Assembly (NCBI GenBank): GCA_026390115.1
Contig: JAPLGO010000038.1
Coordinates: forward strand, 1-64,000
Direction of reading: 5' to 3'
Length of the DNA: 64,000 nt
Origin: Campylobacterales bacterium
GTDB lineage: Bacteria; Campylobacterota; Campylobacteria; Campylobacterales; Sulfurimonadaceae
The notes below the pieces were generated by a model. The model made no database searches, had not been told where the DNA came from, and worked only from the letters and a program-made list of their open reading frames with translations. The position numbers were made by a program, and so were the translations under genes. Numbering within the stretch: the stretch's first letter is position 1; every line of letters begins with the position of its first letter. Below are positions 956 to 62,933 of the stretch, piece by piece.

Positions 956-1759
956 TTATGCTATCTTGCGATGCTCTTTTACAAATTCATAAGCATTTTG
1001 AATAACTTGAAATCTTCTCGTGTATAGTTTTACTAAATCATCATTTTGATTATATACTATATCGGGATGATATTTTTTAAGCATATTTCTATAGTTTTTT
1101 TTCATCTCCATTGCGGTGCTATCATCCGAAATACTTAAAATCATATATGATTTTTGCAGTTTTTCTTTATAGAGATATTCTGCTGTGTAGGTATCTTCTG
1201 GATGCATACGCTTAAAACTTAATCCATGCGCTATAAAAGTTACAGGTATGTTTAAAATTTCTCTTCTTGATAAAATACTTTTTAAAAGAGATAGATGCAC
1301 CTTAGTCTTAACGGTAATATTGAAAGTTGATTTATTACTAGTAAGTGTCATAGAATCTTTAAAAATTAATTTAAAGTATTGTGTAATTTTATCTTGATGC
1401 TGATTACATGATACGCTAATCTCATATGAATTAATCTGGTCTATCGTAATAGTTGCCATCTTGCTAACAGAATTATTATTAGGAATAATCACATGTATTG
1501 GCAAATAATAAGATGTGATTAGCCGCTGAAAAAACATACTGTCTTTGTATGGATTGCCTTTTTCATATATTTTATACGCCCATTTTAAAAGATATTTTTT
1601 CTTTATTTCTTCACTGATTTCATTTAAAATGACAACACTATTTGAAAAATGATTTACTCTTTGAAAACTATAGTCTATATAGTGCAAAAGAGGCTTTAAA
1701 TTAATTGAATTATTTTTAGGTGTAAGTATAATTGCATTTTTTTCTAAAGTGATAATCAT
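956..1759 (-). CDS. Protein with C-terminal J domain
   Basis: 267 residues. The last ~65 residues form a J domain: helix II (MKKNYRNMLKKY), the HPD tripeptide in KKYHPDIV, and a helix III ending in FQVIQNAYEFVKE. The HPD loop is what stimulates the ATPase of a DnaK-type Hsp70, so an Hsp70 co-chaperone role is expected. There is no Gly/Phe linker, zinc finger or DnaJ substrate domain. The ~200-residue N-terminal part is not recognised and probably supplies the specificity. The gene is 86 bp downstream of the last gene of the chemotaxis-type cluster, on the same strand, so read-through is possible. Its own start is preceded by an AT-rich spacer with AGGAG close to the ATG. The J domain is certain; the client is unknown. 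Confidence 0.8.
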   Translation of the reverse strand: MIITLEKNAIILTPKNNSINLKPLLHYIDYSFQRVNHFSNSVVILNEISEEIKKKYLLKWAYKIYEKGNPYKDSMFFQRLITSYYLPIHVIIPNNNSVSKMATITIDQINSYEISVSCNQHQDKITQYFKLIFKDSMTLTSNKSTFNITVKTKVHLSLLKSILSRREILNIPVTFIAHGLSFKRMHPEDTYTAEYLYKEKLQKSYMILSISDDSTAMEMKKNYRNMLKKYHPDIVYNQNDDLVKLYTRRFQVIQNAYEFVKEHRKIA

Positions 1760-1846: not shown

Positions 1847-3325
1847 TTAAAACATCTCAAAGTCATCTTCATCCTCAATAATATCTGCTTTGTTGAAAAT
1901 AAGTTCAAACTGTAAAATCGTACTAAACAAGGAACTATCTAAGTAATGAATATCATTTGTGGTTTGTTCAACAAACACATTGCGTCTCCAGTTAGATAAA
2001 TCAAGCATAATATTTGACAGATAGAGTTCTGTCTTTTTGTGTTTTGTCTCATCCAAATCATCTGCTGCAATTGTCTGCAACAACTCACCTAGAGAATTTA
2101 TTGCATAGGATAAATCTTCAAATTCAACTAATAAAGCGACACCGGCAGCATAGTTTAAAAGCTTAGTAGATATTTGACTAAGTGCATCAAAATTTTTTTC
2201 TTCATTAAACTCTCTTATAAGCTCATTTACTTCATCTTCTATTTCAGAGAGGTCTTCATTCTTTTCTAATACATAGTCGTCAATATCAGCACTAAAATCT
2301 TCCGAACTCACGGCTATATTTTCACGAGATTTTTTTAGAAGATTTTTCTCTTTATTGTTAAGCACTCTTGCTATTTTAGATGTTTCCTCTTCTTCTACCT
2401 CTTTCTTGACATGTACAATTGCTTTTTGAAAAGATTTTTCAAAGAGAATTTTATCTACCTCTTTCCCTTTGCGAAATTTTTTAATAAAATCTTCCAGACG
2501 CATACTATAATGACTTATTTTTAGCTTCTGATACTCGATTAAAGTAATATTATTCAATGTGTACATTTTTAAAGATGAATTATCCAAAAATGGTATATCG
2601 CTAACAAAAATATCAAAAATATTTATTCCCCTTCCTGTTAAGAGGGAAACTTTATTTTCTTTTCTTTGCGGGTCAATCTCTTCAATACTACTTATACAGC
2701 CTACTTTTGCATGAAAAATAGAATTTATTTGAAATTCACTTCCACAAAGTTCTGCTTTTTCTTTACTCACAAGTTTTAAAAATTTTGAGTTTGCATATTG
2801 AATATTTCTGCCATTATAGACAACGATAGGGTTAGGACTGTTTTCTAAAAAGGCAGTTAAATTTGCAATGCTCTGCTCATCTTTTTTTCTGTTTTTTTCT
2901 ACCTCTTCGGCTACCCGTTTTTCTAAAGAATTATTTAACTCTTCAAGTTCTGTTACATCCTGTCTCAGGGCAAGGTACTCAACAACATTGTTATTATCAT
3001 CCATAATAGGTATAATAATTGCCGTAACATAGTAGGTTGAGCCATTCTTAGCACGATTTTTAATCTTTCCTTTCCAGCACGATTTTCTGCTTATGGTGCC
3101 CCATAAATCTCCGTAAACCTCATCCGGAACATCTGGATGTCTGACAATATTATGGCTGCTTCCAAGCAGCTCCTCTCTTGTATAACCGGATATTCTGCAA
3201 AATTGGTCATTTACATAGGTGATTTTGCCGTTTAAATCAGTTTTGGAAACAATGGCACCCGCATCTACAACCCTTTTATACTCTTCTAAGAGCTTTGTGT
3301 TATTTTTTAACTCTTGTTCGTTCAT
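1847..3325 (-). CDS. PAS-PAS signalling protein with C-terminal X domain
   Basis: 492 residues, soluble. Residues ~15-130 are a PAS domain of the aerotaxis type (KTDLNGKITYVNDQF, SGYTREELLG, HPDVP, PAC segment up to RQDVTELE). A short coiled coil follows, then a second, weaker PAS (~160-270). Residues ~300-492 are the helical X domain seen in three other proteins here: FEDLSYAI, then W-x4-FV, then NDIHYLDSS, a spacer of ~17 residues, and an acidic tail ending DDFEMF. There is no kinase, receiver or catalytic output domain that I recognise. It is the last member of a tight run (19 bp after REC-X) behind cheB, so it probably acts on or with the CheA/CheY phosphorelay. The PAS type resembles redox or oxygen sensors, but no cofactor can be read from sequence. 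Confidence 0.8.
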   Translation of the reverse strand: MNEQELKNNTKLLEEYKRVVDAGAIVSKTDLNGKITYVNDQFCRISGYTREELLGSSHNIVRHPDVPDEVYGDLWGTISRKSCWKGKIKNRAKNGSTYYVTAIIIPIMDDNNNVVEYLALRQDVTELEELNNSLEKRVAEEVEKNRKKDEQSIANLTAFLENSPNPIVVYNGRNIQYANSKFLKLVSKEKAELCGSEFQINSIFHAKVGCISSIEEIDPQRKENKVSLLTGRGINIFDIFVSDIPFLDNSSLKMYTLNNITLIEYQKLKISHYSMRLEDFIKKFRKGKEVDKILFEKSFQKAIVHVKKEVEEEETSKIARVLNNKEKNLLKKSRENIAVSSEDFSADIDDYVLEKNEDLSEIEDEVNELIREFNEEKNFDALSQISTKLLNYAAGVALLVEFEDLSYAINSLGELLQTIAADDLDETKHKKTELYLSNIMLDLSNWRRNVFVEQTTNDIHYLDSSLFSTILQFELIFNKADIIEDEDDFEMF

Positions 3326-3344
3326 AAAAAAACCTTTATATTTT

Positions 3345-4649
3345 TTAAAAAAATTCTAAATTATCCTCTTCTTCGTTAGCTTTCTCTTCTGCAAAGATGG
3401 ACTCAATCTGCAAACATGAGCTAAGAAGAGAGGAGTCAAGATAGTGAATATCATTTGCTTCTTGCTTCACAAATAAATTCACCCTCCAACTGCTTAAATC
3501 CGATACAAGGCTAAGCATTAGAGTGATTAATTTTTTGACTTTTTTTTCATCCAACTGAGACTCTTCCAGATTTGCTAAAAAATTAGCAAGTGAAACAATA
3601 GCATAGGCGAGATGCTCAAACTCGACAAGCTCTTCTATCACCTCTACATAATCCAAAAAGAGTTCAGATAAATTTTGTAAATTTGTAACCGTGTTCTCTC
3701 TTTCAAAATCAAGCAGAGAGACATCCAATCGGTCTTCAATACTCTCTAGTGATTCAATCTTATCCATAAGAGCTATTGCCGTGGTCTCTACATACTCTGC
3801 AGCAGTTATTTTATTGAAATGAGTTTTTGAAAGAATCTCTTGATCTTGTGCTGTAATTTTTATGTCATCAGTTGTATAAGCCGAGGTTTTACCTTGTTGT
3901 GTTTGTAATGCTTTCTTTAATCTAAACGACAAAACACCATCTTTTAATATAAATGGTGTATTCTGACAATGTTTTAGTAATATGTGACGAATAACTATTT
4001 CACTAATCGAAACGAGTGATGTTTGTGTAAGATAGAGATTGCTGTCATTCTCTTCAGAAGCAATTGTAAAGGCATGATTTGTTTTTAAAAGCCATAAACC
4101 GATACCATAAATGACTCTTACTACGTCACTTATATTTTCTGCCATGCAAGTGCTGTTATTAAGGTAATAATCCCAAAAGTATGCAAGGGATGCTTCCGAA
4201 TCGATAGTAAATATTTTGGATAACGGATATACGGTATCACTGAAAAGTGAAGCTGCTTTTGTTGTATGTATTGGTTTGGCGCGCATCGATATAATCGTCA
4301 TATAATTTTTTACGCGCTGCACAAAAAGTTCTGAATTTATAGGCTTAGTAATATAATCTTCAGCACCGCTTTGTAACATCATGTTTTTAGATTTTTCGTC
4401 ATCGAGCGCGCTCAGAGCAATTATCATGGTTGAAGCAGAAAAAGCTTTAATCGCTTTGGTTGCCTCTATGCCATCTACATTCGGCATCATAATATCCATA
4501 AAAATTAAATCAAACTTGCTTTCTCTGCACATAGAGATTGCCTCGGCGCCATCGACCGCTTCTTTAATAACTGCTCCATCTATATCTTCAAGCAGAAGTT
4601 CAATAGCCATTCTATTGTCTTGATAATCATCTACGATTAAAATATTCAT
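3345..4649 (-). CDS. Response regulator with C-terminal X domain
   Basis: 434 residues. Residues 1-120 are a CheY-like receiver: N-terminal acidic pair DD in LIVDDYQDN, the phosphoacceptor Asp in LIFMDIMMPN, Ser/Thr in IIALSALD and Lys in DYITKPIN. Residues ~130-270 are an unrecognised mixed helical region. Residues ~270-434 are the X domain with FEHLAYAI, W-x4-FV, NDIHYLDSS and the terminal EEDNLEFF. The start overlaps the stop of the upstream hybrid kinase by 4 bp (ATGA), so the two are translationally coupled, and that kinase is a natural phosphodonor. No DNA-binding output exists, so signalling is by protein contact or by an unknown activity of X. Confidence 0.85.
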   Translation of the reverse strand: MNILIVDDYQDNRMAIELLLEDIDGAVIKEAVDGAEAISMCRESKFDLIFMDIMMPNVDGIEATKAIKAFSASTMIIALSALDDEKSKNMMLQSGAEDYITKPINSELFVQRVKNYMTIISMRAKPIHTTKAASLFSDTVYPLSKIFTIDSEASLAYFWDYYLNNSTCMAENISDVVRVIYGIGLWLLKTNHAFTIASEENDSNLYLTQTSLVSISEIVIRHILLKHCQNTPFILKDGVLSFRLKKALQTQQGKTSAYTTDDIKITAQDQEILSKTHFNKITAAEYVETTAIALMDKIESLESIEDRLDVSLLDFERENTVTNLQNLSELFLDYVEVIEELVEFEHLAYAIVSLANFLANLEESQLDEKKVKKLITLMLSLVSDLSSWRVNLFVKQEANDIHYLDSSLLSSCLQIESIFAEEKANEEEDNLEFF

Positions 4650-6187
4650 CTATCAACTTCCTTATTTTTATTATTCATTTCAAATAGTAATCCAAAACGG
4701 GTACCACCCATCTGCTTTGAATCTTCAAGATTATATTTTATACCTAAATCATTACATACAAGTCTTACAAAGTATAGACCGATTCCGGTTCCCTGTGTTT
4801 CTCTTTTTATTAACGATGTATTTCCTTGTTCATAGAGGTTAAAAACAGACTCTTTGTCAACAATACCTTTTCCGTTGTCTTCAATAAAAATTTCAATAGC
4901 ACTCTTTGACTTTTTTATCTCTATGCATATCTTATTGTTGCCATATTTTATCGCATTAGAGAGAATATTACCAAGAATTTGTTTTACTCTGTACTCATCA
5001 GAATGAATCTCAAACTCTTCATCAATCAATAGTTCAATCTCAATATGCTTGGCTTTGATTAACGAATCAAATTGTTCCAAAAGAGAGGTAATTAGTTTGT
5101 TGAGGCTAAATAATCTTTTAGTGTAGCTAAGCTTGTTGGCTTGAAGCTTCGATATGTCAAGAATATTATTGACATTATCTAGCATGTCATAAGCATTGGA
5201 GATAATAGATTTTAAAAGATTGGCAGTTTTAATAGGTTCAAGATATTGTGAATTGATTAATTTTGTATGAATATATTTTGAAAAATTTATAATAGCGTTG
5301 AGCGGTGTTTTAAGCTCATGGGTAAACAATACCAAAAATGCTTCCTTCGCTTCATTTATGTGCTGCTCTTCCTCTTTTTTTAACATCTCTGCGTTCATTT
5401 TTCTTTTTAAACTAACATACTCCGTAACATCTTGGCGTATAGCAATAAATTCAAAAATTTTTCCTTTGTTGTCCTCAAGGGGGATGATAATCGTATCTGC
5501 CAAAAATGAGTTTCCATTTTTATTTAAATTTTCCATACGACCACGCCACACTTGACCGCGCAGGATAGTATCCCACATCTCATTATAAATATTTTTTGGA
5601 GTGTTTGGATGTTTAAAGATATTGTGTGACTTTCCTATTAGCTCTTTTCGTGCATATCCAGAGATATTACATAAATTATCATTCACATAAGTGATGATTC
5701 CTTTTGTATCTGCTTTTGAAACAATAGAAGCTTCTGTTAACACTTGAAAATAGCGACTGTCATCATGCATGCTTTTAACCGTTTTAATATTAGATACAAT
5801 CCGATTTATTGTATTTAATAACATTTTTTTTTCAACAGGCTTGAGAAGATATGCATCTATCCCTATCTCAATGGATTCTATAAAAAATTGATTCTCTATA
5901 TATCCGGTCATAACGATGATCGGCACATCATGCTTCTGTTTTCTAATAATACGAGCCATCTCCAGCCCATTCATTCTCGGCATTTCTATATCGGTTATAA
6001 CAATATCTATATCATTTGTGCTAAAAAGATTTAAGCCCTCATCCGCATCTTTAGCGGTATAAACTTTAGCAAAGAGTTCTTCAAATATTCTATGGAACAT
6101 CTTTCTGGTTGAAGGGTCATCTTCTACATAAAGTAAACTAAGCTTTTTAGAGTAAGGTAAAAGCTCCTCTATTGAATCCATTTTCAT
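4646..6187 (-). CDS. Hybrid REC-PAS-histidine kinase
   Basis: 513 residues, no membrane segment. Order: receiver (~10-130; Asp in DIVITDIEMPRMNG, Lys in AYLLKPVEK), PAS (~145-265; same subtype as the PAS of the neighbouring PAS-PAS-X protein, with ITYVNDNLCNISGYARKEL and HPNTP), HisKA (~285-360; phosphoacceptor in FTHELKTPLNAI) and HATPase_c (~400-505; ILSNAIKYG, DNGKGI and GTGIGLYFVR boxes). All catalytic elements look intact. An N-terminal receiver on a kinase usually makes it responsive to another kinase, so it may take phosphate from CheA or from the upstream soluble kinase and pass a PAS-tuned signal to the REC-X partner, with which it overlaps by 4 bp. Confidence 0.88.
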   Translation of the reverse strand: MKMDSIEELLPYSKKLSLLYVEDDPSTRKMFHRIFEELFAKVYTAKDADEGLNLFSTNDIDIVITDIEMPRMNGLEMARIIRKQKHDVPIIVMTGYIENQFFIESIEIGIDAYLLKPVEKKMLLNTINRIVSNIKTVKSMHDDSRYFQVLTEASIVSKADTKGIITYVNDNLCNISGYARKELIGKSHNIFKHPNTPKNIYNEMWDTILRGQVWRGRMENLNKNGNSFLADTIIIPLEDNKGKIFEFIAIRQDVTEYVSLKRKMNAEMLKKEEEQHINEAKEAFLVLFTHELKTPLNAIINFSKYIHTKLINSQYLEPIKTANLLKSIISNAYDMLDNVNNILDISKLQANKLSYTKRLFSLNKLITSLLEQFDSLIKAKHIEIELLIDEEFEIHSDEYRVKQILGNILSNAIKYGNNKICIEIKKSKSAIEIFIEDNGKGIVDKESVFNLYEQGNTSLIKRETQGTGIGLYFVRLVCNDLGIKYNLEDSKQMGGTRFGLLFEMNNKNKEVDR

Positions 6188-6235
6188 TTTAGGCTCTCTC
6201 CTCTTTAAGTGGCTTTTGACAATTTTGCAAGAGGT

Positions 6236-7039
6236 TTATTGATTAAATAAAATAGAGAAAACTGTAGTGCCATCTTTTGCATCAACACTTAAAGATGCTC
6301 CGGCTACATTCTCAACCATTAATTTTGACATGTAAAGTCCTATTCCTGTGCCTTTGCCTTTGGCTTTAGTAGTAAAGTAGGGATCAAAAATCTTATTTAT
6401 AATCTCCTTAGGAATTCCACCAGCATTATCCTCAATATCTAATCGGATAGCTTTTTCATCCCATCGAGTCGAAATTTTGATCTTTTTCTCTGTTGTCTCA
6501 TCTTTGCCTTCAAAAGCATCTTTCGCATTTGTTATGATATTTAATAAAACATGCTCAATACTTTTGATATTGTGAAACACTTTCAGCTCTTTATCTACCT
6601 CTGTTTCTAACAAAATTGATTTGTTTCTCAGCTGTGGGGTAATCATTTTTATTGCTTCGTTTACGGCTTCATAAAGAAAAAATTCCCTGTTTATGTCACT
6701 CTTATTAAACTCCATAAAATCGTCTATAATTCCTGACATAGTCAGTGTCTCTTTTTGAATAAATTTGCTTATCTCTTCGATTGATTCATTCGTGAGTAGA
6801 TTAAGCTCATTCTTAAAAGAGAGATTTATAGCCGAGGCGCTAAGAGCATTCAGCGGTTGTCTCCACTGATGGGCAATCATGTTAAGCATCTCTCCCACCT
6901 GGGCAAGCTTAGCTTGTTCGAGAAGCAGATGCTCCTTTTCATAAAGCTCTTTCGTCTTCTCTTCTAATGCGGCTTGTAAAGATTGAATTATCTCTTTTAG
7001 ACGATTTTCCTCGCTATTTGTATCGTTAAACAGTGACAT
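6236..7039 (-). CDS. Soluble histidine kinase (HQWRQP type)
   Basis: 267 residues. An N-terminal coiled coil (~10-50) runs straight into the dimerisation and phosphotransfer helix with the H box MIAHQWRQPLNAL, the variant common in Campylobacterota. The ATPase domain follows (IITNAKDAF N box, DNAGGIPKE G1 box, GKGTGIGLYMSK G2 box). There is no input domain, so it is probably controlled by a partner protein through the coiled coil. It lies 48 bp upstream of the REC-PAS-HK hybrid and 116 bp downstream of the REC-PAS-X gene. The short 7040-7155 gap could hold a secondary promoter. Likely receivers of its phosphate are the REC domains on either side. Confidence 0.88.
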   Translation of the reverse strand: MSLFNDTNSEENRLKEIIQSLQAALEEKTKELYEKEHLLLEQAKLAQVGEMLNMIAHQWRQPLNALSASAINLSFKNELNLLTNESIEEISKFIQKETLTMSGIIDDFMEFNKSDINREFFLYEAVNEAIKMITPQLRNKSILLETEVDKELKVFHNIKSIEHVLLNIITNAKDAFEGKDETTEKKIKISTRWDEKAIRLDIEDNAGGIPKEIINKIFDPYFTTKAKGKGTGIGLYMSKLMVENVAGASLSVDAKDGTTVFSILFNQ

Positions 7040-7155
7040 AAAACCTCCTCTCTCACACTCTTAAGAACATTACATAACTTTGCATTTTTGTGCATCGTAA
7101 CCATCTTTTCTGTGTAAATAATCAATATAACATATCTAAAAATAACTTAAATAAA

Positions 7156-8628
7156 CTAAAATAATTCTAAATCATTCTCTTCGGATTCCATCTCGTTGAT
7201 ATCAGAAGACAAAATCAGTTCAATCTGAAGACATGCACTAAATAGTGAACTATCAAGATAGTGAATATCCTGAGCGCTTTTTTCTATAAAAATAAGTTGG
7301 TACCAGTCGGCGAGGTCAGACTCTATAGCCCCAAGGAAAAGGGATATCTTTTTTATATCTTTATCACGAAGCTCTTTCTCTTTTATTGAACTCAACAGTT
7401 CAGAAAGGGAACGCACTGCATAAGAGAGATCTTCAAATTCAAACAGAAGATTGATTACATGCGCATATTTGGATAGATAAATTACTATCTCATCAATTAC
7501 TGCAATATTTTTGTCATCTTGAAATACTTTTGCACTGTATTTAAACTCTTTGCCCAACTGGTCAAGCTCTTGGAGCTCATTTAATATCTCATCGTCAAGC
7601 TCTTTTACATATTCGCCAGCCGATGTTTTATAGAGGTGAGAGCGTCGCAGTAAAGCATTTTCTTGGTCGCTGATTTTCATTTTAGAAGTTGCAGAGGGCG
7701 CAGTTAATTTCAAACTCTTTTCTTCTGACACAACTTTTTTCTTTGGAGAGATACGGTATCTGTTACTAAAGATAATCTCTTCTAAAAGCTCAGAGTAGTT
7801 CTTGATTTTTATCTTTTGATACTCTTCCCAGGTAATATCATTGAATGTGTACATTTGACTCAGGCTGGAATCTATGCTTACGTCAATCTCTCGTTGAATG
7901 ACACTATAGATTTTACGTCCTTTCTTTCCCTCTATTGTGACTCTATTTTTTATTTTATTTTTCTCATTATAATCTTTAAGAGAATCCATAAAGCCCTCTC
8001 TTTTACTGAAGAGATTATTTATGTTTATTTTTTTTTGTAAGAATTGCTCAAACTCATTTTCTTGAAACAGGTTGCAGAATGCATCATTAATGTACCGTAC
8101 ATCTTCGCCGTTCAAAATAATACAGGGGTTAGGAAAGCCATCTGCAATTTTCATAATAAGCTGGTCAGAAATACGGTTTATTTTCTCTTTTATTTGTAAA
8201 ATCTCCAGCTCTTTTGCACGTGCTCTATCAAACAAAAGTTTAGAAATATCATAAAGAACATCTCTGACATGCTCTAAATTCATGGGTTTGAGTATATATT
8301 TGTCAACCTTTAAATCTATGGATTTTATAAAAAAATCCTGTTCATTAAAAGCTGTTGTGATTACAATCGGAATATCGCTGGAGTGTTCCCGTATGATTTT
8401 CACCATTTCAAGTCCGCTCATGTTTGGCATCTGAATATCACTTATAATAAAATCAATCCTGTTTTTATGAAACTTTTCTAATCCATCCAAGCCATCGACC
8501 GCTACAAATACTTGATTAAATATTTTTTCAAAAAAATCTACCATATTGGTTCTGATACTTTTTTCGTCTTCCACATAGAGGACATTATATTTTTTTGTCA
8601 GTCCCATAATTTCAGTAAATGATTTCAT
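7156..8628 (-). CDS. REC-PAS protein with C-terminal X domain
   Basis: 490 residues. Receiver at ~10-130 (DE in LYVEDEKSI, Asp in DFIISDIQMPNMSG, Lys in KYILKPMN). A PAS-like segment lies at ~155-275, with the same PNP.I..N....YIN/YAN wording as PAS2 of the PAS-PAS-X protein. A Lys-rich linker follows, then the X domain (~310-490: SAGEYVKEL, FEDLSYAV, W-x4-FI, AQDIHYLDSS, terminal EENDLELF). It therefore combines the input modules of the two other X proteins of this cluster. The ATG is 1 bp after the stop of cheB, so it is clearly part of the che operon and probably works on CheB/CheA-linked signalling. The biochemical activity is unknown. Confidence 0.85.
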   Translation of the reverse strand: MKSFTEIMGLTKKYNVLYVEDEKSIRTNMVDFFEKIFNQVFVAVDGLDGLEKFHKNRIDFIISDIQMPNMSGLEMVKIIREHSSDIPIVITTAFNEQDFFIKSIDLKVDKYILKPMNLEHVRDVLYDISKLLFDRARAKELEILQIKEKINRISDQLIMKIADGFPNPCIILNGEDVRYINDAFCNLFQENEFEQFLQKKININNLFSKREGFMDSLKDYNEKNKIKNRVTIEGKKGRKIYSVIQREIDVSIDSSLSQMYTFNDITWEEYQKIKIKNYSELLEEIIFSNRYRISPKKKVVSEEKSLKLTAPSATSKMKISDQENALLRRSHLYKTSAGEYVKELDDEILNELQELDQLGKEFKYSAKVFQDDKNIAVIDEIVIYLSKYAHVINLLFEFEDLSYAVRSLSELLSSIKEKELRDKDIKKISLFLGAIESDLADWYQLIFIEKSAQDIHYLDSSLFSACLQIELILSSDINEMESEENDLELF

Positions 8629-8629
8629 T

Positions 8630-9679
8630 TTAAGCTCTCTCCTCTTCCCCGATTAATTCAAGAATTTTTTTTGGGATATTTTGCAGTGAGGTTTGTATGT
8701 CAACCCCGCCCAATTCATAAGCTACCCTCGGCATGCCGTACACAACGCAGCTTTTTTCATCCTGCCCTATGGTACGAGCACCTGCATTGTGCATGTTTAA
8801 CATTCCCTTCGCTCCATCGCTTCCCATCCCTGTGAGAATAACACCTACTGCATTTGAACCGGCGCTCTTTGCAACGGAGTTAAAAAGCACATCTACCGAT
8901 GGTCTGTGACCGCTCACTTTTTCACCTGTTCCCAGCTGTATATAATAACGGTGTCCGGAACGGCGCAGTACCATGTGCATATCACCGGGAGCTAAAAGTA
9001 CTTGACCAATACCTATTGTGTCACCGTTTCTTGCCTCTTTCACGTCTACTGCACAGAGTGAATTGAGGCGCTCTGCGAACTGTCCTGTAAAGTTGGCAGG
9101 CATGTGCTGCACTATAATAATCCCTGGGCTGTTTCTAGGCAACTGAACTAAGACATCTTTGAGTGCCTCGGTTCCGCCCGTAGATGCTCCAATCGCCACA
9201 ATTTTCTGGGTAGTTTCTGAGAGTGCGCCGCGATAGGTCAACGGCTGAACCTTTGTGATATCAACATGCTGCACTTGCACCTTCGCTCGCGCGGCTGCTT
9301 TTACTTTTGCCAGCAGCTCCAAGCGTATCTCATCTGAACCGTCATAAATATTGGAATGCGGTTTTGCAACAAAATCAATGGCGCCTGCTTCGAGGGCATC
9401 GAGTGTTGTTCTTGCTCCTTTTTGTGTCAGTGATGAAACCATAACAACAGGAGTGGGCATGTATTGCATCAGTTTTTTTAAGAAAGTTATTCCGTCCATT
9501 CGAGGCATTTCTACATCAAGGCAGATAACATCAGGTTTAAATTTAAGAATCTTATCTCGTGCCACGTAGGCATCAACAGCCGTTTCAACACTGCTTATGT
9601 CAGAATCTTTTGACAATATATCTGTCAAAACTGCTCTGGCAGTAGCACTGTCATCTACTATTAATACCTTGATACCCAT
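8630..9679 (-). CDS. cheB: CheB receptor methylesterase / glutaminase
   Basis: 349 residues, normal full length. The receiver (1-125) has phosphoacceptor Asp55 in VICLDVEMPRMDG. The C-terminal methylesterase (~158-345) has the catalytic triad Ser166 (AIGASTGG), His192 (VQHMPANFT) and Asp288 (LTGMGSDGA). It hydrolyses glutamate methyl esters on chemoreceptors, which resets adaptation, and is activated by CheA phosphorylation. The start overlaps the cheD stop by one base (TAATG), so the two adaptation enzymes are coupled. Identity is certain. The presence of a receiver on CheB matters here because some Campylobacterota CheB proteins lack it. Confidence 0.97.
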   Translation of the reverse strand: MGIKVLIVDDSATARAVLTDILSKDSDISSVETAVDAYVARDKILKFKPDVICLDVEMPRMDGITFLKKLMQYMPTPVVMVSSLTQKGARTTLDALEAGAIDFVAKPHSNIYDGSDEIRLELLAKVKAAARAKVQVQHVDITKVQPLTYRGALSETTQKIVAIGASTGGTEALKDVLVQLPRNSPGIIIVQHMPANFTGQFAERLNSLCAVDVKEARNGDTIGIGQVLLAPGDMHMVLRRSGHRYYIQLGTGEKVSGHRPSVDVLFNSVAKSAGSNAVGVILTGMGSDGAKGMLNMHNAGARTIGQDEKSCVVYGMPRVAYELGGVDIQTSLQNIPKKILELIGEEERA

Positions 9680-10143
9680 TACTCACTCTCTTTTATGTAT
9701 TTGAGTAATATTTTTCCTGAATCGCTTACCATAAGAATGCGTCTGCCTTGCCCGCCACCGACATCCTGTGCGATAATGGGGATTTTATACTCATTGAGTA
9801 TCTCTTTGGCAATAATTATATTTTTGCGTCCAACCATCATATTCTCTTGCGCAATGGTATCAATTACATTCGCGCCGCCAAATATCTTCGCTTCCATATT
9901 ATTGAGCTTGCAGCCGATGTTGAGCATTCCCTCAACCAGTCTATGAATGGCTATGTTCCCATACTTCGGGCTTTGAAGACCGTTACCATTCCACAGAGGT
10001 ACAAGATAGTGGTTCATTCCGCCAATCATCTCTGCTTTGTCATAGATACACACGGAAACGCATGAACCTAAGATAGTACTTATTTCAGTCGGTCTTACTC
10101 CGATGTAAAACTCACCGACATGAATAAACTTTTTAATAATCAT
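9679..10143 (-). CDS. cheD: CheD chemoreceptor glutamine deamidase
   Basis: 154 residues. The N-terminal signature is clear: VGEFYIGV, then LGSCVSVCIYD with the catalytic Cys, and GGMNHYLVP with the catalytic His. CheD deamidates specific glutamines on receptors and, in other bacteria, is often sequestered by CheC~CheY-P. No CheC is present in this cluster, so its regulator here is unknown. It overlaps the upstream His-less kinase gene and the downstream cheB by one base on each side (TAATG junctions). Confidence 0.96.
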   Translation of the reverse strand: MIIKKFIHVGEFYIGVRPTEISTILGSCVSVCIYDKAEMIGGMNHYLVPLWNGNGLQSPKYGNIAIHRLVEGMLNIGCKLNNMEAKIFGGANVIDTIAQENMMVGRKNIIIAKEILNEYKIPIIAQDVGGGQGRRILMVSDSGKILLKYIKESE

Positions 10144-11036
10144 TAGAATTCCATCATTCCATTATCTGATGTCTCAGCAAAAAACTCATCTGACCCAAGC
10201 CCCTCTGAAAGCGAAAGACTCGCCTCATCTTTATGGGAGAGTTTTACCAAAAAGACTGTTTTGTCATCTTCACTGAAGTGATCAATTGAGCCATCGAGTG
10301 ATTCTGCAAGCTCTTTTACAACACTCAGACCAAGACCAAGACCTTGCCCAGGGCGAGTTTTTCCGGTATTGTGTTTATAGAAGCGGTTGTAGATATTTTT
10401 GCTATGCGCAGCATAAACTCCCTCTCCGAAATCTTCAACCCGCAATGTATAAAAGCCATTCTCTGATGCAAAAATAATATTTATATCTGCGTTAGGATAA
10501 GAGTATTCGCAAGCGTTTGAAAGAAGGTTAAGAAGTATAAGATAGAGCTTCTGTCCATCTGTCACCATCTTTCCTTCAATACTGTTTTTCACTCGCACGG
10601 TGAGTGACTTCTCTTTAATAAGGTGTCCAAAATACTCTATGGTTTCGTCTGCTACATCTTCGGGGGTAATGCGTGCAAAATCATTTCCCATCTCTCCATA
10701 CTCTATCTCAGAAGCTGCAAAGATATTTTTCAGACTGAAATCCAGATAGGTGAGTTCACTGCGCATCATCGAACCTATGGCATCAAGCCGCTCAACGTCC
10801 ACATCTTTTTTAATCTTTTTCGCAAGACTGAGAAGGGAAGAGAGAGGATTATTAAACTCATTTTTTATCAGTGATAAAAAGTAGCTTTTTGCCGCTTCAA
10901 CCTCTTTACTTCTCTCGTTCATCTCAAGAAGTTTTTTTGTCATAAACTCCATCTCTGCAATTGAAGCACTCTTCTCTTCAAATCTTCGTCCTATCTCTTT
11001 TAAGAGTTCCTTATCACTGATATTTATAATTTCCAT
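10143..11036 (-). CDS. Histidine-kinase-like protein lacking the phosphoacceptor His
   Basis: 297 residues, soluble. A coiled coil (~15-50) precedes a HisKA-like helix reading FLSLIKNEFNNPLSSLL. Compared with the usual S-H-E-L-x-T-P-L, the His position is Asn59 (codon AAT, complement of 10860-10862; a C to A change from CAT would produce it). The ATPase domain keeps all boxes: LLNLLSNACEYS, VEDFGEGVY and GQGLGLGLSVVKEL. It could bind ATP but not autophosphorylate at the standard site. The tail ends NGMMEF, like the aromatic acidic tails of the MCP and X proteins of this cluster. It sits between cheR and cheD, so it is probably a structural or allosteric partner of the signalling array, or a phosphatase. 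Alternatively it is a decaying kinase, although the frame is intact. Confidence 0.85.
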   Translation of the reverse strand: MEIINISDKELLKEIGRRFEEKSASIAEMEFMTKKLLEMNERSKEVEAAKSYFLSLIKNEFNNPLSSLLSLAKKIKKDVDVERLDAIGSMMRSELTYLDFSLKNIFAASEIEYGEMGNDFARITPEDVADETIEYFGHLIKEKSLTVRVKNSIEGKMVTDGQKLYLILLNLLSNACEYSYPNADINIIFASENGFYTLRVEDFGEGVYAAHSKNIYNRFYKHNTGKTRPGQGLGLGLSVVKELAESLDGSIDHFSEDDKTVFLVKLSHKDEASLSLSEGLGSDEFFAETSDNGMMEF

Positions 11037-11045
11037 GGTGCTTCC

Positions 11046-11867
11046 TTATTGTTTCATGTAGATAGATGACTTGACTAATTTTAGGTTTTTAACACTCGGC
11101 GGTATAGATTCAGAGTGACCGATAAACATCAATCCTCCACTTTGTAAAAGTGATGCGAGATGTATATTAATCTGTGTCTGCACTGCTTTATCAAAATAAA
11201 TCATTACATTACGACAGAAAATTATATCAATCGGGTTCGAAAACATGCCGTAGTTCCCGTACACCAAATTAAATTTTCTAAATGTAATCATTTTTTTTAT
11301 AGAGTCATTCACCGCAAACTCTTTGGATGTTCCGCTTTTTTTGAGAGTGAAATATTTTTGCATGATATTGTGTGATAATCCTTCCATGGACTTTTCAGAA
11401 TAAACTCCAAGCATCGCTTTTTTTAAAATCTCTTCAGAGATATCCGTCGCCAATATTTTAATATCCCATGTTTCAATATTGGGTATATTCTCATGTAAGA
11501 AGATGGCGATACTGTATGGCTCTTCACCGCTTGATGAGGCACTTGACCAGATGCGAAGCTTCTTTTTCTCTTTTTTTAGGAGAGTGTTTTTTATATACTC
11601 TTTAAAATAGACCCACTGCTCTTTTTCACGAAAAAAAGAGGTCACATTGGTAGTGATGGCATCTTCAAGTTCATGGTCTATGATGCTTCCGCTATGATGC
11701 ACAAAGTAGTCATAAAGTTCCATGTAGCTGTTTAACCGTTTTTTAGTGAGCAGTTTGCTGAGCCTTGATTGCATCATTGAAACTTTCTGGTCACTCAGGG
11801 AGATGCCTAATCTGTCATAGACAAGCTCTCTGAAGAGGTCAAACTCTTTTTTCTTCAATTGAAGCAT
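11046..11867 (-). CDS. cheR: CheR receptor methyltransferase
   Basis: 273 residues. The N-terminal helical CheR_N domain (FDLFRELVYDRLGISL) is followed by the SAM-binding Rossmann domain with the family motif WSSASSSGEEPYSIA and the late motif DIIFCRNVMIYFD. It transfers methyl groups from S-adenosylmethionine to receptor glutamates, opposing CheB. It sits 3 bp after cheA and 9 bp before the His-less kinase, inside the operon. CheR in several bacteria docks on a C-terminal receptor pentapeptide; the MCP encoded in this operon ends DLKEF, which could play that role. Confidence 0.97.
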   Translation of the reverse strand: MLQLKKKEFDLFRELVYDRLGISLSDQKVSMMQSRLSKLLTKKRLNSYMELYDYFVHHSGSIIDHELEDAITTNVTSFFREKEQWVYFKEYIKNTLLKKEKKKLRIWSSASSSGEEPYSIAIFLHENIPNIETWDIKILATDISEEILKKAMLGVYSEKSMEGLSHNIMQKYFTLKKSGTSKEFAVNDSIKKMITFRKFNLVYGNYGMFSNPIDIIFCRNVMIYFDKAVQTQINIHLASLLQSGGLMFIGHSESIPPSVKNLKLVKSSIYMKQ

Positions 11868-11870
11868 TTA

Positions 11871-14087
11871 TTAATTCACTTTTATTTTAAAGAGTGCATC
11901 AACATTTAAGATAAGAGCAATATCGCCATTGCCCATAACTGCTCCGCCCGTGATTCCTTCGAGTTTTGCAAGTGCCTTGCCTAAAGGTTTAATAACTACC
12001 TGCTGGCGTCCGACCAAGTCATCAATCAGAAGTGCATATTTACCGTCTTCACTCTCTACACAGATAAGAGTTGACTCCCAAATTTCCGGTCGTTTTGCAT
12101 TGATTCCAAGTATCTCATTGAGACGCATAACTGGAATCATCTCTCCGCGAAGGTCAACAAACTCTCCCTTGTTTCGGGCTGTATGCACAATATCTTTTGC
12201 AGGTATAAACGACTCAACTACGCTCAGTGTAGGAATAATAAACATGTCTCCCGCACTCTTGACTATCATTCCGTCTATAATCGCCAAAGTAAGTGGCAGC
12301 AAAATCGTAAATACAGAACCTTCGCCTACTTTGGAATCTATCTCCACTTTGCCTTGGAGCTTCTCAATGGAAGATCTCACAACATCCAAACCAACTCCGC
12401 GACCCGAGATGTCGCTGATAACATCGGCAGTAGAGAAACCGGCCTGCATGATAAGTCCATATATCTGCTGGTCGCTCAGTACATCATCTTTGGCAATGAT
12501 ACCTCTCTCAAGTGCCTTGGCATAAACCTTCTCTTTGTTTATACCGCGCCCATCATCACGCACCTCGATAGCGATATTACCGGCTTTGTGGTAGGCACGC
12601 AGAAGAACACGACCTTTTGGGTTTTTACCTTTTGCTATGCGCTCTTCTGCAGTAGCTTCTATTCCATGGTCTATCGCATTTCTGATAATGTGAATTAAAG
12701 GGTCAGAGAGAGAATCAACCATAGTTTTATCTACCTCGGTCTCTTCTCCTTCTATTCTTAATTCTATATCTTTATCCACTTTTCTAGAAGCATCTCTTGC
12801 TACTCGTTTCATCTTGTCAAACGTGTCATGCACCGGCACCATTCTCAGAGCCATGACACGGTTCTGAATAAGACGGGTGATTTTGCTGAGGTTTTCAATA
12901 GTTCTGGTTAGTTTCGGGCTATTGAGATTTTTAATCTCATCATTCTCAGCCACAAAGTTTTGCGTGATTACCATTTCACCCACAGAGTCAAAGAGTTCAT
13001 CGAGCTTCTGTGTATCTATCTTTACAAAAGAGCGCTTGTCATCTTTACGGCGCTGCAAATCTGCGTCCGGTGCTTCTCTGAACTTTTCACCTTCAGCTTT
13101 TTCACTCTCTATTGTTTTGCTCTCAACTTTTTTACTCTCTATTCTTTCATTCTCCGCAGGCTGTTTTTCTATTGCCAATATTTGTGCACTAGGAGCAGTC
13201 TCTGATTGTGCAGCCGTTTGTACATTCAGTGAGCTTCTCGTTTCCACAAGAGCAGGTGGCTGTGCACTCTCCTCATTACCCATTAAAGTAATAGAAAACT
13301 CTTCCGGCTCAACAAATAAAAAGACCTCTTCAATTGAAGCAATACTCTCATGGCTCTCTAAATAGAGTTCAACTTCACCCCAGTAATTTACCTCTGCATC
13401 AAAATTTTCTATTTTTGCAATTTTAGGAAGTGTCCATTGAGATTGAAGAATATTTCCCTTTTCGCTTAAGAGTTGAAAAAAACGTCCATGGTCATATCCT
13501 CTGTGATAGATATCATTATCGAGCTTTAAAATAATTTTATATAACAGCTTCTCGTCACTAGCTACAGGTATCTCTATAGTTGCTTTTGGTTTTGTCGTCT
13601 CTTCAACAGTTTGGTTTATAACCTCGGTTGCAACAGGTGTCGTATTTATATCACCAAACTCTTCTGCAAGATTAACCATCTCCACAAACTCATTTGTAAC
13701 TTCTTTATTTTCAAGAAGATGTTTAATAGATTCTAAGGTAGAGTCATAGTTTGGAGGGACACCCTCATCGCCGTTTACCTCTAGCCAAAGAGTCTCTTTA
13801 ATAACATCTACGGCATTTAAAAATATATCGATAACATGCGCAGGTACACTTACATCGGTGTCTCGGTAATGGTCAAGCACATCTTCAAAAAGATGCACAA
13901 AACCGCCAAGACGGGTAAAACCAAATGAGTTTGCACTCCCCTTGAGGGTATGAACACCGCGAAATAACTCATTAAGCAACTCTTTATTCTCTGAATCCTC
14001 TTCATAATTGATAATATCAATATCAAGCTTCTCAATTATCTCTGTAGCTTCTTCAATAAATATAGAACGAATTTCTTCTTTAGTCAT
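11871..14087 (-). CDS. cheA: CheA chemotaxis histidine kinase
   Basis: About 738 residues from the ATG whose product begins MTKEEIRSIF. An in-frame ATG 33 bases further upstream would add a poor leader and run deeper into the preceding gene. Domains: P1 Hpt with phosphoacceptor His46 in GVHTLKGSANSFG; a long variable linker with a second small alpha/beta region; a Lys/Glu-rich linker; P3 dimerisation; P4 ATPase (NAIDHGIE, DDGRGI, GRGVGLDVV); and P5 CheW-like regulatory domain (LRGEMIPVMRLNEIL). All catalytic parts are present. It phosphorylates the CheY-like, CheB and REC-X proteins of the cluster. No C-terminal receiver is fused, unlike CheA-Y of Helicobacter and Campylobacter. The start overlaps the upstream small gene by 8 bp. 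Confidence 0.96.
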   Translation of the reverse strand: MTKEEIRSIFIEEATEIIEKLDIDIINYEEDSENKELLNELFRGVHTLKGSANSFGFTRLGGFVHLFEDVLDHYRDTDVSVPAHVIDIFLNAVDVIKETLWLEVNGDEGVPPNYDSTLESIKHLLENKEVTNEFVEMVNLAEEFGDINTTPVATEVINQTVEETTKPKATIEIPVASDEKLLYKIILKLDNDIYHRGYDHGRFFQLLSEKGNILQSQWTLPKIAKIENFDAEVNYWGEVELYLESHESIASIEEVFLFVEPEEFSITLMGNEESAQPPALVETRSSLNVQTAAQSETAPSAQILAIEKQPAENERIESKKVESKTIESEKAEGEKFREAPDADLQRRKDDKRSFVKIDTQKLDELFDSVGEMVITQNFVAENDEIKNLNSPKLTRTIENLSKITRLIQNRVMALRMVPVHDTFDKMKRVARDASRKVDKDIELRIEGEETEVDKTMVDSLSDPLIHIIRNAIDHGIEATAEERIAKGKNPKGRVLLRAYHKAGNIAIEVRDDGRGINKEKVYAKALERGIIAKDDVLSDQQIYGLIMQAGFSTADVISDISGRGVGLDVVRSSIEKLQGKVEIDSKVGEGSVFTILLPLTLAIIDGMIVKSAGDMFIIPTLSVVESFIPAKDIVHTARNKGEFVDLRGEMIPVMRLNEILGINAKRPEIWESTLICVESEDGKYALLIDDLVGRQQVVIKPLGKALAKLEGITGGAVMGNGDIALILNVDALFKIKVN

Positions 14088-14346
14088 GATATATCCAATG
14101 CACGCTGCCATAATGAGCAAGCTTCAGCACTCCCTCGTCAATCATAGGAATGCGGATTTCAGGCTTGCTTTTTTTAATACTAAACAGAAGAGCAAAAAGA
14201 GAAGAAGAGACAAATACCTCCCGCTCTCCTACTATTTCTATAGATTCAATATATTCCAAACGGGGTTCGACAAACTTTTTCAGTTCAATCACTTCACCCA
14301 AATCCATGTCCAGTTCTATCTCAAGAACATCGCCATCTATTGTCAT
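14080..14346 (-). CDS. Small STAS-like protein in che operon
   Basis: 88 residues. Alternating strands and helices, with a VSSSLFALLFSIKKS segment followed by RIPMIDEGVLKLAHYG, recall a STAS (anti-sigma-antagonist-like) fold, where a Ser/Asp loop precedes a helix. The match is weak and rests on pattern only. It sits immediately after the MCP stop and overlaps cheA by 8 bp, so it is co-expressed with the receptor and kinase. Small STAS proteins occur in some alternative chemotaxis clusters as partner switches. A role as a scaffold or adaptor is a guess. Coding is well supported by operon fit and lack of internal gaps. Confidence 0.7.
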   Translation of the reverse strand: MTIDGDVLEIELDMDLGEVIELKKFVEPRLEYIESIEIVGEREVFVSSSLFALLFSIKKSKPEIRIPMIDEGVLKLAHYGSVHWIYHD

Positions 14347-16308
14347 TTAGAACTCCTTCAAGTCCTCATCATCCAGAGGAAATACATCGTTGCTACTGCC
14401 TTTAGAGGCTTTTTTAGGAGCTATTGTCGCTCTTTTTGGCTGGTTATACGCTATATTCTTTGTCGGTTTTGATGTACGACGTACTTGTTGCGTGTTTTGT
14501 TGTGCGCCTACAATTCCAACCATAGCTGCTATTACTGCAACCATGTCTTGCATAGCAACAGCTTGAGCATTGAGTTCTTCAGACGCCGCTGCCGCTTCTT
14601 CGGATGTTGCCGCGTTTTGTTGCGTGACTTGATCAATGTTGCCCATCGCCTGTGCAATCTGGCTCATACCCTCACTCTGCTCTTTAGTAGAGATAGAGAT
14701 TTCGCTGATAAGATTTGAAGTCTTTTTAATCTTTTCATCAATATTTCCAAATGCTTCATTTGTTTTCTTCGCTACATCCAGACCGTTTCTAATCTGTTTA
14801 ATAGATTGTTCGATTATTTCCGATGTTTCAGTTGCAGCATTCGCCGAACGCTGAGCAAGCCCTTTAACTTCATCCGCAACAACTGCAAATCCTAAGCCAT
14901 GTTCACCTGCACGTGCCGCTTCAACTGCAGCGTTGAGGGCTAGAAGTTTTGTTTGGGATGCAATCTCATCAATCGTTTTAATAATTTTTGCGATTCTTTC
15001 ACTGGAGTTGTTAATCTCTTCCATTGCAGCCATAAGTTCCGTACCTCTTGCAAAACCTTCGGATGCCGCTTCTTTGGTATCTTTTGCCAAGATGTCAGCT
15101 TCACGAGAGTTGTCAGCGTTCTGATTATTGATAGCTGTTGCCTCTTCTACGGTCGCACTTACTTCTTCGATGGAGCTTGCTTGTTGTGAAGCACCCTCTG
15201 CAAGTGCTTGTGAAGATTCAGAAATTTCTCCTGCTGCACTTACTACCTGTGAGTTTGCGCTTGTGATTGACTCGACCGCACGGATGATAGGACCTGTAAT
15301 ACTTCTAATTAAGTAAATAGCTAAAGAGATACCGATTACAAGAGCTGCAATTAGACCCACAATCATGATAAATGCTGAAGAGGATAGGCTGGCAGCCGAA
15401 TCTTTTGAAGTAGTTGCAGTTTGATCCATTGCTGTTTTAGCTGTCTCTTGAGCCGCTTCTAATACTTCGCTTCCTACTGTAGTACGTTTTTTTCCAACCT
15501 CTTGCAGTTCAATCCAGCTTTTAATAAAACCATTTACAGCTTCCTGATATTGGTTAGCCGCAAGCTTAATCTCTTCAAGCTGCTTAAGGTTCTCGGCTTT
15601 GTGAACTATTTTCCCAAGACGGGCAAATATTGCATCCATTTTAGGAAAGTTTTTTTGCGCATCATAGATAATAGACGGATCTCTTAAAGCCTGTGATTTA
15701 AATGTCTTAATTCTTGTATCATTCCCTATATCAATTACATCATTGATAACTGTGATTTTTTCAAGTCTTTCTGCCAACTTTTCCGGAGGTAGCTTAGCAG
15801 CAATCTCATTTTTCATATCCTCATTCTGACCGGTTAAAAAGTCATTACAGTTGGTCATATACTTTTTAGCACCACTGTCTAACTCAGCTCTGTATTTCGT
15901 CAGCGCATCCAACAAACTTTCTGTCTGCTTGATAAGAGCTTCATACTCCAAAGTTTTTATTCTGGCATGCTTTTCATGCTCTGTAAGTTTGGTAAGTGAA
16001 TACTTTTCTGCGTGTGCTTTTGCTTCATCCAGATAGCGTTTTACTTCACTTAATTTTTTATTACCTTCTTCCAGAAAAGTTTTATCATCGGCATAAGCGT
16101 AACCTCTGATGGCATACATGGTTAAAAGAGCGTTTCTTTCAACATTATTTCCTACCGATACTTCTGGAACATATATCTCTGAAAGTTTCTTGGAGTCACC
16201 CTCAACACTCTTCATATTAAAAATAGCCATTGAACCCAAAACAAGGGTAATCATCAGCAGTAAAATAAACCCTATACTAATCTTATATGTTAACGTTAAA
16301 TTTTTCAT
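14347..16308 (-). CDS. Transmembrane methyl-accepting chemotaxis protein
   Basis: 653 residues. TM1 is at ~11-30. A ~280-residue all-helical periplasmic sensor follows, consistent with a four-helix or helical bimodular ligand domain. TM2 is at ~308-335 (IMIVGLIAALVIGISLAIYL), then HAMP, then the coiled-coil signalling domain with the conserved hairpin tip (DEIASQTKLLALNAA and GLGFAVVADEVKGLAQRSA, ~440-490). After the coiled coil comes a flexible ~50-residue tail that is Lys/Pro-rich and ends PLDDEDLKEF. It is the only receptor in the cluster and lies between cheW and the STAS-like gene, so it is probably dedicated to this CheA. The ligand is not deducible. Confidence 0.95.
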   Translation of the reverse strand: MKNLTLTYKISIGFILLLMITLVLGSMAIFNMKSVEGDSKKLSEIYVPEVSVGNNVERNALLTMYAIRGYAYADDKTFLEEGNKKLSEVKRYLDEAKAHAEKYSLTKLTEHEKHARIKTLEYEALIKQTESLLDALTKYRAELDSGAKKYMTNCNDFLTGQNEDMKNEIAAKLPPEKLAERLEKITVINDVIDIGNDTRIKTFKSQALRDPSIIYDAQKNFPKMDAIFARLGKIVHKAENLKQLEEIKLAANQYQEAVNGFIKSWIELQEVGKKRTTVGSEVLEAAQETAKTAMDQTATTSKDSAASLSSSAFIMIVGLIAALVIGISLAIYLIRSITGPIIRAVESITSANSQVVSAAGEISESSQALAEGASQQASSIEEVSATVEEATAINNQNADNSREADILAKDTKEAASEGFARGTELMAAMEEINNSSERIAKIIKTIDEIASQTKLLALNAAVEAARAGEHGLGFAVVADEVKGLAQRSANAATETSEIIEQSIKQIRNGLDVAKKTNEAFGNIDEKIKKTSNLISEISISTKEQSEGMSQIAQAMGNIDQVTQQNAATSEEAAAASEELNAQAVAMQDMVAVIAAMVGIVGAQQNTQQVRRTSKPTKNIAYNQPKRATIAPKKASKGSSNDVFPLDDEDLKEF

Positions 16309-16310
16309 CT

Positions 16311-16835
16311 CTATTCTCCTACCTTTTCAATTTTATTACTTGATTTACTCTCTTCAAACGAACTCATCTGAGTCAATTCATCATCTTCAAAAATCTTCTC
16401 CATGTCAAGGATTAAGATAACATCCGATCCAACCTCTGCAACACTTTGAATAAAAGAAGTGTCTATATGTGAACCAAATTTCGGCGGTTCGCTTAAATCT
16501 TTGTCGGCAAATGTGAGTACATCTTCTACTCTGTCTACGATAAAACCGATATTCACACCGCTCACTTCATTTATAATAATTGCAGTATTCATGTCATGCT
16601 CTTTTCTTTCAAGACCGAATTTCCCCCGGATATCTACAATCGGAATGATAGAACCCCGAAGATTAATAACACCCTCCACAAAAGAGGGAGTTCTCGGAAC
16701 GTGTGTAATCTTCATCATCGCAATGATTTCATTAATATGCGATATCTCTATTCCGTACTGCTCATCTTGGACAAAAAAACTCAAATAACGGTGTCTATGA
16801 CCGGCTTCTTCACTCTCTAAATCTTTTGTTCTCAT
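16311..16835 (-). CDS. cheW: CheW adaptor protein
   Basis: 174 residues, one CheW SH3-like domain. Recognisable parts are FFVQDEQYGIEISHINEII at the start, VINLRGSIIPIVDIRGKFG in the middle, and GFIVDRVEDVL. It couples the MCP to CheA in the signalling array. The C-terminal ~25 residues are charged and Ser-rich, beyond the usual domain. The ATG overlaps the last base of the upstream CheY-like gene, and the stop lies 2 bp before the MCP start. Confidence 0.96.
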   Translation of the reverse strand: MRTKDLESEEAGHRHRYLSFFVQDEQYGIEISHINEIIAMMKITHVPRTPSFVEGVINLRGSIIPIVDIRGKFGLERKEHDMNTAIIINEVSGVNIGFIVDRVEDVLTFADKDLSEPPKFGSHIDTSFIQSVAEVGSDVILILDMEKIFEDDELTQMSSFEESKSSNKIEKVGE

Positions 16836-17221
16836 TAAATCCCCAATACCATTTTTACAGCCTTTGTCAGCTTTTCATCACTAAACGGCTTAACCATCCA
16901 CCCTGTGACGCCTATCTCCTTACCTCGCTCTTTCATGGCAGGAGAACTCTCTGTGGTCAGAATCAGAATAGGTTTGTTTTTAAAGCGTTCATCTGCTTTT
17001 AATGTTGCTGCCAAATCTAATCCATTCATTTGCGGCATATTTATATCACTTATTAGCATGTCAAAGTTTTCACTCCCCCCCATTAATAAATCAAGCAACT
17101 CTGCCGGATTTTGATATGTAACTAAAGTAACGCTCCCGCTACTTTCCATCTCTTCTAAAGCCATTTGAGCTGTAGCCAGAATAGTTTTTGAATCATCTAC
17201 TAAAATAACTCTTTTTGCCAA
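16835..17221 (-). CDS. CheY-like single-domain response regulator
   Basis: About 128 residues from a TTG codon at 17219-17221, product beginning MAKRVILVDDSKTI. This start is chosen because a GGAT ribosome-binding site lies 5 bases upstream and receivers of this class begin there; an ATG at 17269 would add an unlikely leader. The receiver has acidic DD, phosphoacceptor Asp in DMLISDINMPQMNG, Thr in ILILTTESS and Lys in WMVKPFSDE. It is the promoter-proximal gene of the chemotaxis-type operon and overlaps cheW by one base. It probably carries the CheA output signal; the target (flagellar switch or other) is not in this window. Confidence 0.9.
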   Translation of the reverse strand: MAKRVILVDDSKTILATAQMALEEMESSGSVTLVTYQNPAELLDLLMGGSENFDMLISDINMPQMNGLDLAATLKADERFKNKPILILTTESSPAMKERGKEIGVTGWMVKPFSDEKLTKAVKMVLGI

Positions 17222-17319
17222 GACAAATCCTTTTATATAATGTAACCTTATATCCATAACCACTAGCATGCTCTTGCAAACGGTTCGGAATTTAAATTTT
17301 TTGAAATAAAAAATAATAA

Positions 17320-62403: not shown

Positions 62404-62404
62404 T

Positions 62405-62932: not shown

Positions 62933-62933
62933 A

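Follow-up and report, generated by a model that had tools for sequence, protein, structure and literature searches.

The 64,000-nucleotide stretch of Campylobacterales DNA analysed here, referred to as the window, carries a chemosensory operon, and several proteins encoded in the window end in a common C-terminal domain, called X below. An initial annotation, made from the sequence alone, had noticed X in four proteins and knew no family with its signature. This raises the question of what X is and what role it may have in chemosensory signalling.

An unnamed C-terminal domain of Campylobacterota

The four open reading frames had been placed correctly, all on the minus strand (1847-3325, 3345-4649, 7156-8628 and 54969-56630). 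Alignment of their C-termini bore out that X is common to all four, with 25-37% identity to the first copy and with W, F, D-I-x-Y-x-D-x-S and the final Phe invariant. X is a helical C-terminal domain of ~150 residues, followed by an acidic tail that ends in Phe. The copies, and a domain that precedes one of them, lie as follows.

1850..2368, minus strand: X and tail DDFEMF of the PAS-PAS-X protein (ORF 1847-3325), from alignment A3; Pfam PAS at the N-terminus only
3348..3866, minus strand: X and tail DNLEFF of the REC-middle-X protein (ORF 3345-4649), from A3; AlphaFold pLDDT 89.7, CheA P1 match
3912..4277, minus strand: middle domain between REC and X, from alignment A5
7159..7677, minus strand: X and tail NDLELF of the REC-PAS-X protein (ORF 7156-8628), from A3 and Pfam
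54972..55490, minus strand: X and tail TEMEFF behind an unrecognised N-terminus (ORF 54969-56630), from A3; no Pfam family

Three of the architectures stood as first described (PAS-PAS-X, REC-PAS-X and the unrecognised N-terminus), and the fourth needed correction, since the product of 3345-4649 contains a middle domain and is more than REC-X. The 54969 protein, the C18 protein described below and a protein of locus L121 were checked for a second X domain at their N-termini, and none was found.

Searches of the window proteins gave no Pfam or NCBIfam name for X, in agreement with the initial annotation. A PDB sequence profile search with X also returned only noise, so these searches placed X in no known sequence family. 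The shared domain does not merely reflect helix composition, because a profile of the four picked up two others in the host genome, with E-values of 1.7e-27 and 1.4e-20. These two lie at C18:187975-188433, in a protein of 312 aa that has HD-GYP and REC-GGDEF genes as neighbours, and at C12:58237-58752, in a REC-X protein whose REC phosphoacceptor is apparently replaced. At least three divergent copies were located at L156:13248-14588, C35:816-1274 and C22:42522-42971, so that the four copies originally counted are joined by at least five additional ones in the host genome.

The fixed W-to-D spacing and the Phe-ended tail, both pointed out from the four copies, extend to the family: of 107 distinct relatives, 106 kept W-x4-F-x6-D exactly, and Phe was the last residue in 103 of 107 distinct complete ones. 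The distance from the core to the end varies (25-32 residues in nearly all of the 107 distinct complete proteins), which indicates that core and tail are separate elements. By reference domains, 70 proteins were REC-X, nine had X behind an unrecognised N-terminus and two were PAS-X. The receiver of one REC-X protein (L010:3735-4778, minus strand) seems to be without its phosphoacceptor Asp (LIIASAALPD).

A six-row profile (A2) detected X in 55 of 397 sampled Campylobacterota genomes and 16 of 68 genera, with E-values outside the host genome down to 2e-57. A motif-based scan of GTDB contigs yielded 147 X loci. The 79 that were listed carried Sulfurimonas, Sulfuricurvum, Sulfurospirillum or related Campylobacterota labels, apart from a few generic or doubtful ones. 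X is a real, unnamed and phylum-restricted domain, the restriction being that seen in one motif-based scan with 79 of 147 loci listed, which is not proof. The chemotaxis proteins CheO and ChePep are also specific to Campylobacterota, and CheO interacts with the HPt domain of CheA and with CheZ (PMC9665402). X resembles them as an auxiliary chemosensory element confined to one phylum; CheO, however, occurs mainly in host-associated genera.

The second che cluster of the host genome (L156) encodes a REC-middle-X protein of a divergent branch, which was present in 14 of the 397 Campylobacterota genomes and joined the main family with an hhalign probability of 99.7%. In the L156 copy, D139 is gone; W, F and the helix start [DN][DS][ST][IL] are kept, and the protein ends in DDIFDF. 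D139 is absent from most members of this branch, whereas it is invariant in the main subfamily. The REC-middle-X proteins of both che clusters share the middle domain (in L156 at 13620-13985; A5), an unnamed unit of ~110 residues with the pattern F...FW.Y...EE.DE..Y and no recognisable PDB relative by sequence.

Gene neighbourhood of X

The window X genes belong to a chemosensory operon, for which the following features were located.

8630..17269, minus strand: operon core with cheB, cheD, pseudo-kinase, cheR, cheA, mcp, cheW and cheY; neighbourhood conserved in relatives
10143..11036, minus strand: pseudo-histidine kinase with Asn in place of the phosphoacceptor His (KNEFNNPL; Asn in 19/19 homologs); its acidic tail ends in MMEF
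14347..14373, minus strand: tail DDEDLKEF of the operon chemoreceptor, with stop codon; variant class [DE][LM][KR]EF, also in 13/20 neighbouring MCPs

Among the 79 listed GTDB loci, 44 had core che genes within 5 kb of X, a further 16 had kinase, REC or HD-GYP neighbours, and in 19 the reference set identified no signalling neighbour. In Sulfurimonas and Sulfuricurvum, a REC-X gene often directly preceded cheY-cheW-mcp-cheA, and in Sulfurospirillum it formed the end of the run cheR-pseudokinase-cheD-cheB-PAS kinase-REC-X. The F7 class gene order of these three genera has been described by Mo et al. (PMC9321776), in whose figure non-chemosensory genes and genes of unknown function are drawn as dots only. 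From the likeness in gene order, we infer that the X-linked cluster belongs to the F7 class, and by the same token the second che cluster (L156) appears F9-like.

The pseudo-kinase sits between cheR and cheD. Its ATPase domain is retained, each of the 19 aligned homologs has Asn where the phosphoacceptor His would stand, and most of these end in KEF or MEF. A phosphatase role for this protein through a retained E-x-x-N was considered and ruled out, as the E is V in many homologs.

Predicted fold of X

The initial annotation had proposed structure prediction, and for X alone this gave a five-helix bundle with a CheA P1-like match in two AlphaFold models. The model based on A3 (pLDDT 89.7), which covers the copy at 3348..3866, has five predicted helices (32-56, 60-78, 81-98, 107-133 and 144-162) and a disordered tail. 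When this window-subfamily model was compared with known structures using VIA-align, CheA P1 domains took ranks 1-3 (3kyj, Z 12.4, 2.8 Å over 124 residues; 1i5n, Z 12.4; 2ld6, Z 11.7), with 2.8-3.2 Å across 123-130 residues and all five helices covered. The following ranks were designed bundles, mostly with four helices covered. A model of the divergent branch, aligned separately (pLDDT 88), placed CheA P1 at ranks 1-7 with Z 12.6-10.0, the next match having 8.7.

For both models the P1 match comes from VIA-align only, a second-look aligner, and Z-scores of 10-12.6 can reflect the common arrangement of helical bundles. Foldseek alone returned nothing below E 0.5. CheZ was absent among the VIA-align matches listed, which is evidence neither way. 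The comparison of the X profile with CheA P1 sequences was essentially negative (1.8%), so the relation to P1 is an argument from fold and not from sequence; Pfam Hpt did not match the four window proteins or the divergent L156:13248-14588 at E<=1. The P1-like reading is preferred on account of the two models, the clean block of P1 matches and the full five-helix coverage, and X probably adopts a CheA P1-like five-helix bundle.

The phosphohistidine motif HxxKG was found in none of 86 aligned X rows, and the same rows held no conserved His in helix B. Since no member carries the motif, X resembles a pseudo-HPt. In an inferred register that anchors X F83/L86 on the G-F-x-x-L turn of P1, the His position is taken by variable residues (K, E, V and others; 18 of the 24 divergent rows have K or R). 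Conservation in X is highest in the D-I-H-Y-L-D-x-S loop that leads into the last helix, and this loop lies apart from the face through which P1 contacts CheY, a point against the adaptor explanation given below. X thus resembles CheA P1 in predicted five-helix topology, length, chemosensory context and coupling to REC. It differs in having neither HxxKG nor a Pfam Hpt match, in standing behind REC or PAS domains instead of at the head of a kinase, and in an invariant W...F...DIHYLDxS core and a tail of its own. A comparable case is plant AHP6, a pseudo-HPt of the cytokinin phosphorelay, which has an HPt-like fold without the phosphoacceptor His and is thought to act by competition. By general description, both X and AHP6 are HPt-like and without the His; AHP6 differs in having no X-type tail.

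The C-terminal tail

At the exact C-terminus, the tail follows the consensus [DE][DE]x[LIMF]E[FL]F. We analyzed its occurrence with a DNA pattern scan of the host genome and with the ORFs of the X neighbourhoods. Among the neighbourhood ORFs, it was present in 81 of 101 X proteins, and variants were found in the operon MCP (E[DN]DL[KR]EF, 13/20) and in the pseudo-kinase ([DE]MKEF, 8/17). None of 236 other recognised neighbourhood proteins carried it (CheA, CheB, CheD, CheR, CheW, CheY, other kinase, REC, PAS, HD-GYP and DnaJ proteins). Only two of 263 unassigned ORFs did, both from the L121 che cluster: a PAS-GGDEF protein ending in NDDLEFF and a possible divergent X ending in GEIDFF. The scan of the host genome gave 31 sites, and those ending ORFs of >100 aa belonged to X proteins, the MCP and a short CheZ-like protein (mini-CheZ, see below), all of them chemosensory. 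The tail is a motif of its own that can be transplanted between proteins, and among the neighbours only chemosensory ones carry it. We see two classes of it, [LM][KR]EF on the receptor and the pseudo-kinase, and [LIM]E[FL]F on X, the mini-CheZ and a cyclase. This cyclase is the PAS-GGDEF protein of the L121 che cluster (L121:5486-6223), a diguanylate cyclase that has the tail straight after GGDEF, without an X domain.

The C-terminal pentapeptides of F7 receptors (NWETF, GWEEF) are similar in being acidic, Phe-ended extreme C-termini on a flexible linker, and a variant of the X tail is borne by the receptor of the same operon. Such pentapeptides bind adaptation enzymes; GWEEF of P. aeruginosa McpB binds CheR2 (0.52 uM) and CheB2 (93 uM) (PMC7698151). 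The tail could accordingly serve as a tether for CheR, CheB and/or CheD on the receptor, the pseudo-kinase and the X proteins, with X as the presenting scaffold, a reading that we consider doubtful. The E[DN]DL[KR]EF ends of the operon receptor in 13 relatives are in its favour, as is the long beta-loop, the criterion for pentapeptide-binding CheR (PMC5907407), in most CheR proteins of X clusters. However, aromatic residues at pentapeptide positions 2 and 5 are central to CheR binding (PMC7390727, PMC7184735), and the X tails, which are borne by non-receptor proteins, do not follow the pattern x-[HFYW]-x2-[HFYW]: position 2 is aliphatic (L, I or M) in 96 of 107 and F in only nine. In addition, conservation of CheR does not extend to R197, loci L064, L095 and L104 have tails although their CheR loop is short, and a CheZ-type phosphatase and a diguanylate cyclase share the X-type tail. 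Since neither the length of the loop nor R197 follows the presence of the tail, CheR was dismissed as a universal tail receptor.

Phosphatases of the host genome

The initial annotation had suggested that X could be a missing phosphatase or, alternatively, an array-binding module, and had likened its tail to the CheY-binding peptide of CheZ. The comparison of tails proved apt, because the same genome encodes a protein of 135 residues with the CheZ hallmark and the same kind of tail. This mini-CheZ (L156:7881-8288; G000 C12) lies between two cheY genes of the second che cluster and ends in DSDEIEFF, and its motif QYQDIISQQ fits the CheZ hallmark A-x-x-[FY]-Q-D-x-x-x-Q (PMC7750401); it had no Pfam CheZ match. 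Mini-CheZ was present in 14 of 397 genomes and Phe-ended in 13 of the 14, mostly as EIEFF, with the tail at the position where CheZ binds CheY. The C-terminus of the F3 CheZ is also similar to the tail: DDIEALLAQFGQ.

The phosphatase reading itself, in which X would act on CheY-P in place of CheC, CheX or CheZ with the tail docked on CheY, fared less well, and we regard it as very unlikely. It could draw on the tail that X has in common with a CheZ-type phosphatase, on the predicted helical bundle followed by a flexible acidic tail, on D139, D144 and S146, which are invariant in the main subfamily, and on the operon itself, which has no phosphatase gene. Yet X has no DxxxQ, ExxN or universal acid/amide pair, and D139 is missing from most divergent members. 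The annotation had already noted that the CheZ active-site pattern is absent, and no DxxxQ occurs in the conserved columns of A3 and A4; likewise, there is no ExxN in those of A3 and no CheC/CheX Pfam match for any X protein. X and CheZ are thus alike in the acidic flexible linker and terminal hydrophobic peptide and differ in active site and in the predicted fold, which for X matches CheA P1. Finally, dedicated phosphatases are already present in the genome: a CheZ of the F3 type, the mini-CheZ and several CheX. The stated absence of CheX is correct for the operon; the window does contain a CheX gene (62405-62932).

Possible roles of X

Our preferred, still tentative explanation is that X may be a Campylobacterota-specific adaptor with a His-less P1/HPt fold. 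It is fused behind REC or PAS inputs, and a flexible acidic linker leads from it to a putative docking peptide at the C-terminus. The bundle and its tail would bind receivers of the same cluster (of the CheY type and possibly that of CheB) or its kinase array, with no phosphate passed on. Phosphorylation of REC or sensing by PAS in the X proteins could then tune the supply of receivers to CheA. The simplest role for a tethered, His-less P1 would be to hold or compete for receivers, or to sit beside CheA at the array; in P1, the contact with CheY is made by helices A and B together with the B-C loop (PMC2817712). Both the partners and the direction in which X would act are proposals. Docking on receivers is favoured because the mini-CheZ, which has a CheZ active site, bears an X-type tail at the CheY-binding position. 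The tail variant on the MCP speaks against it and points to CheR or CheB as the partner.

Another possibility is localisation. X and its tail might mainly serve to place REC and PAS proteins at the polar array or at a polar landmark, with phosphoryl flow unaffected. The tail common to receptor, phosphatase and cyclase would be consistent with this, as would the Helicobacter chemoreceptor TlpD, whose C-terminus is required for polar localisation (PMC13001251). However, the P1-like fold of X would be left unexplained, and the 19 listed loci without a signalling neighbour also argue against this reading, which we judge quite unlikely.

If the adaptor explanation is true, a phosphate-dead copy of CheA P1 links ordinary two-component proteins to chemosensory arrays in a group of Campylobacterota, acting together with a short docking tail found also on a CheZ-type phosphatase and a cyclase, and X is a bacterial pseudo-HPt. 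It would explain how auxiliary REC and PAS proteins feed into the arrays that Sulfurimonas, Sulfuricurvum and Sulfurospirillum have in addition to F3. A bolder and, in our view, unlikely version is that a shared C-terminal peptide code recruits unrelated chemosensory proteins to one hub, where X would be a P1 mimic gating the flow from CheA. Such a code would unite the pseudo-HPt X, a CheZ-type phosphatase, a diguanylate cyclase, a pseudo-kinase and a receptor, and would amount to a new layer of chemosensory control.

Other genes in the window

On the plus strand, the window also contains a small chemosensory-like operon (59764-63350), in which a sensor protein with an HTFKG HPt-like motif and a CheA-like ATPase region is followed by the CheX gene mentioned above and by a CheY-like gene (62934-63350). 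A gene for a DnaJ-domain protein (956-1759, minus strand) adjoins the PAS-PAS-X gene, and relatives of this protein are encoded near X genes at L019, L031, L047, L048 and L114.
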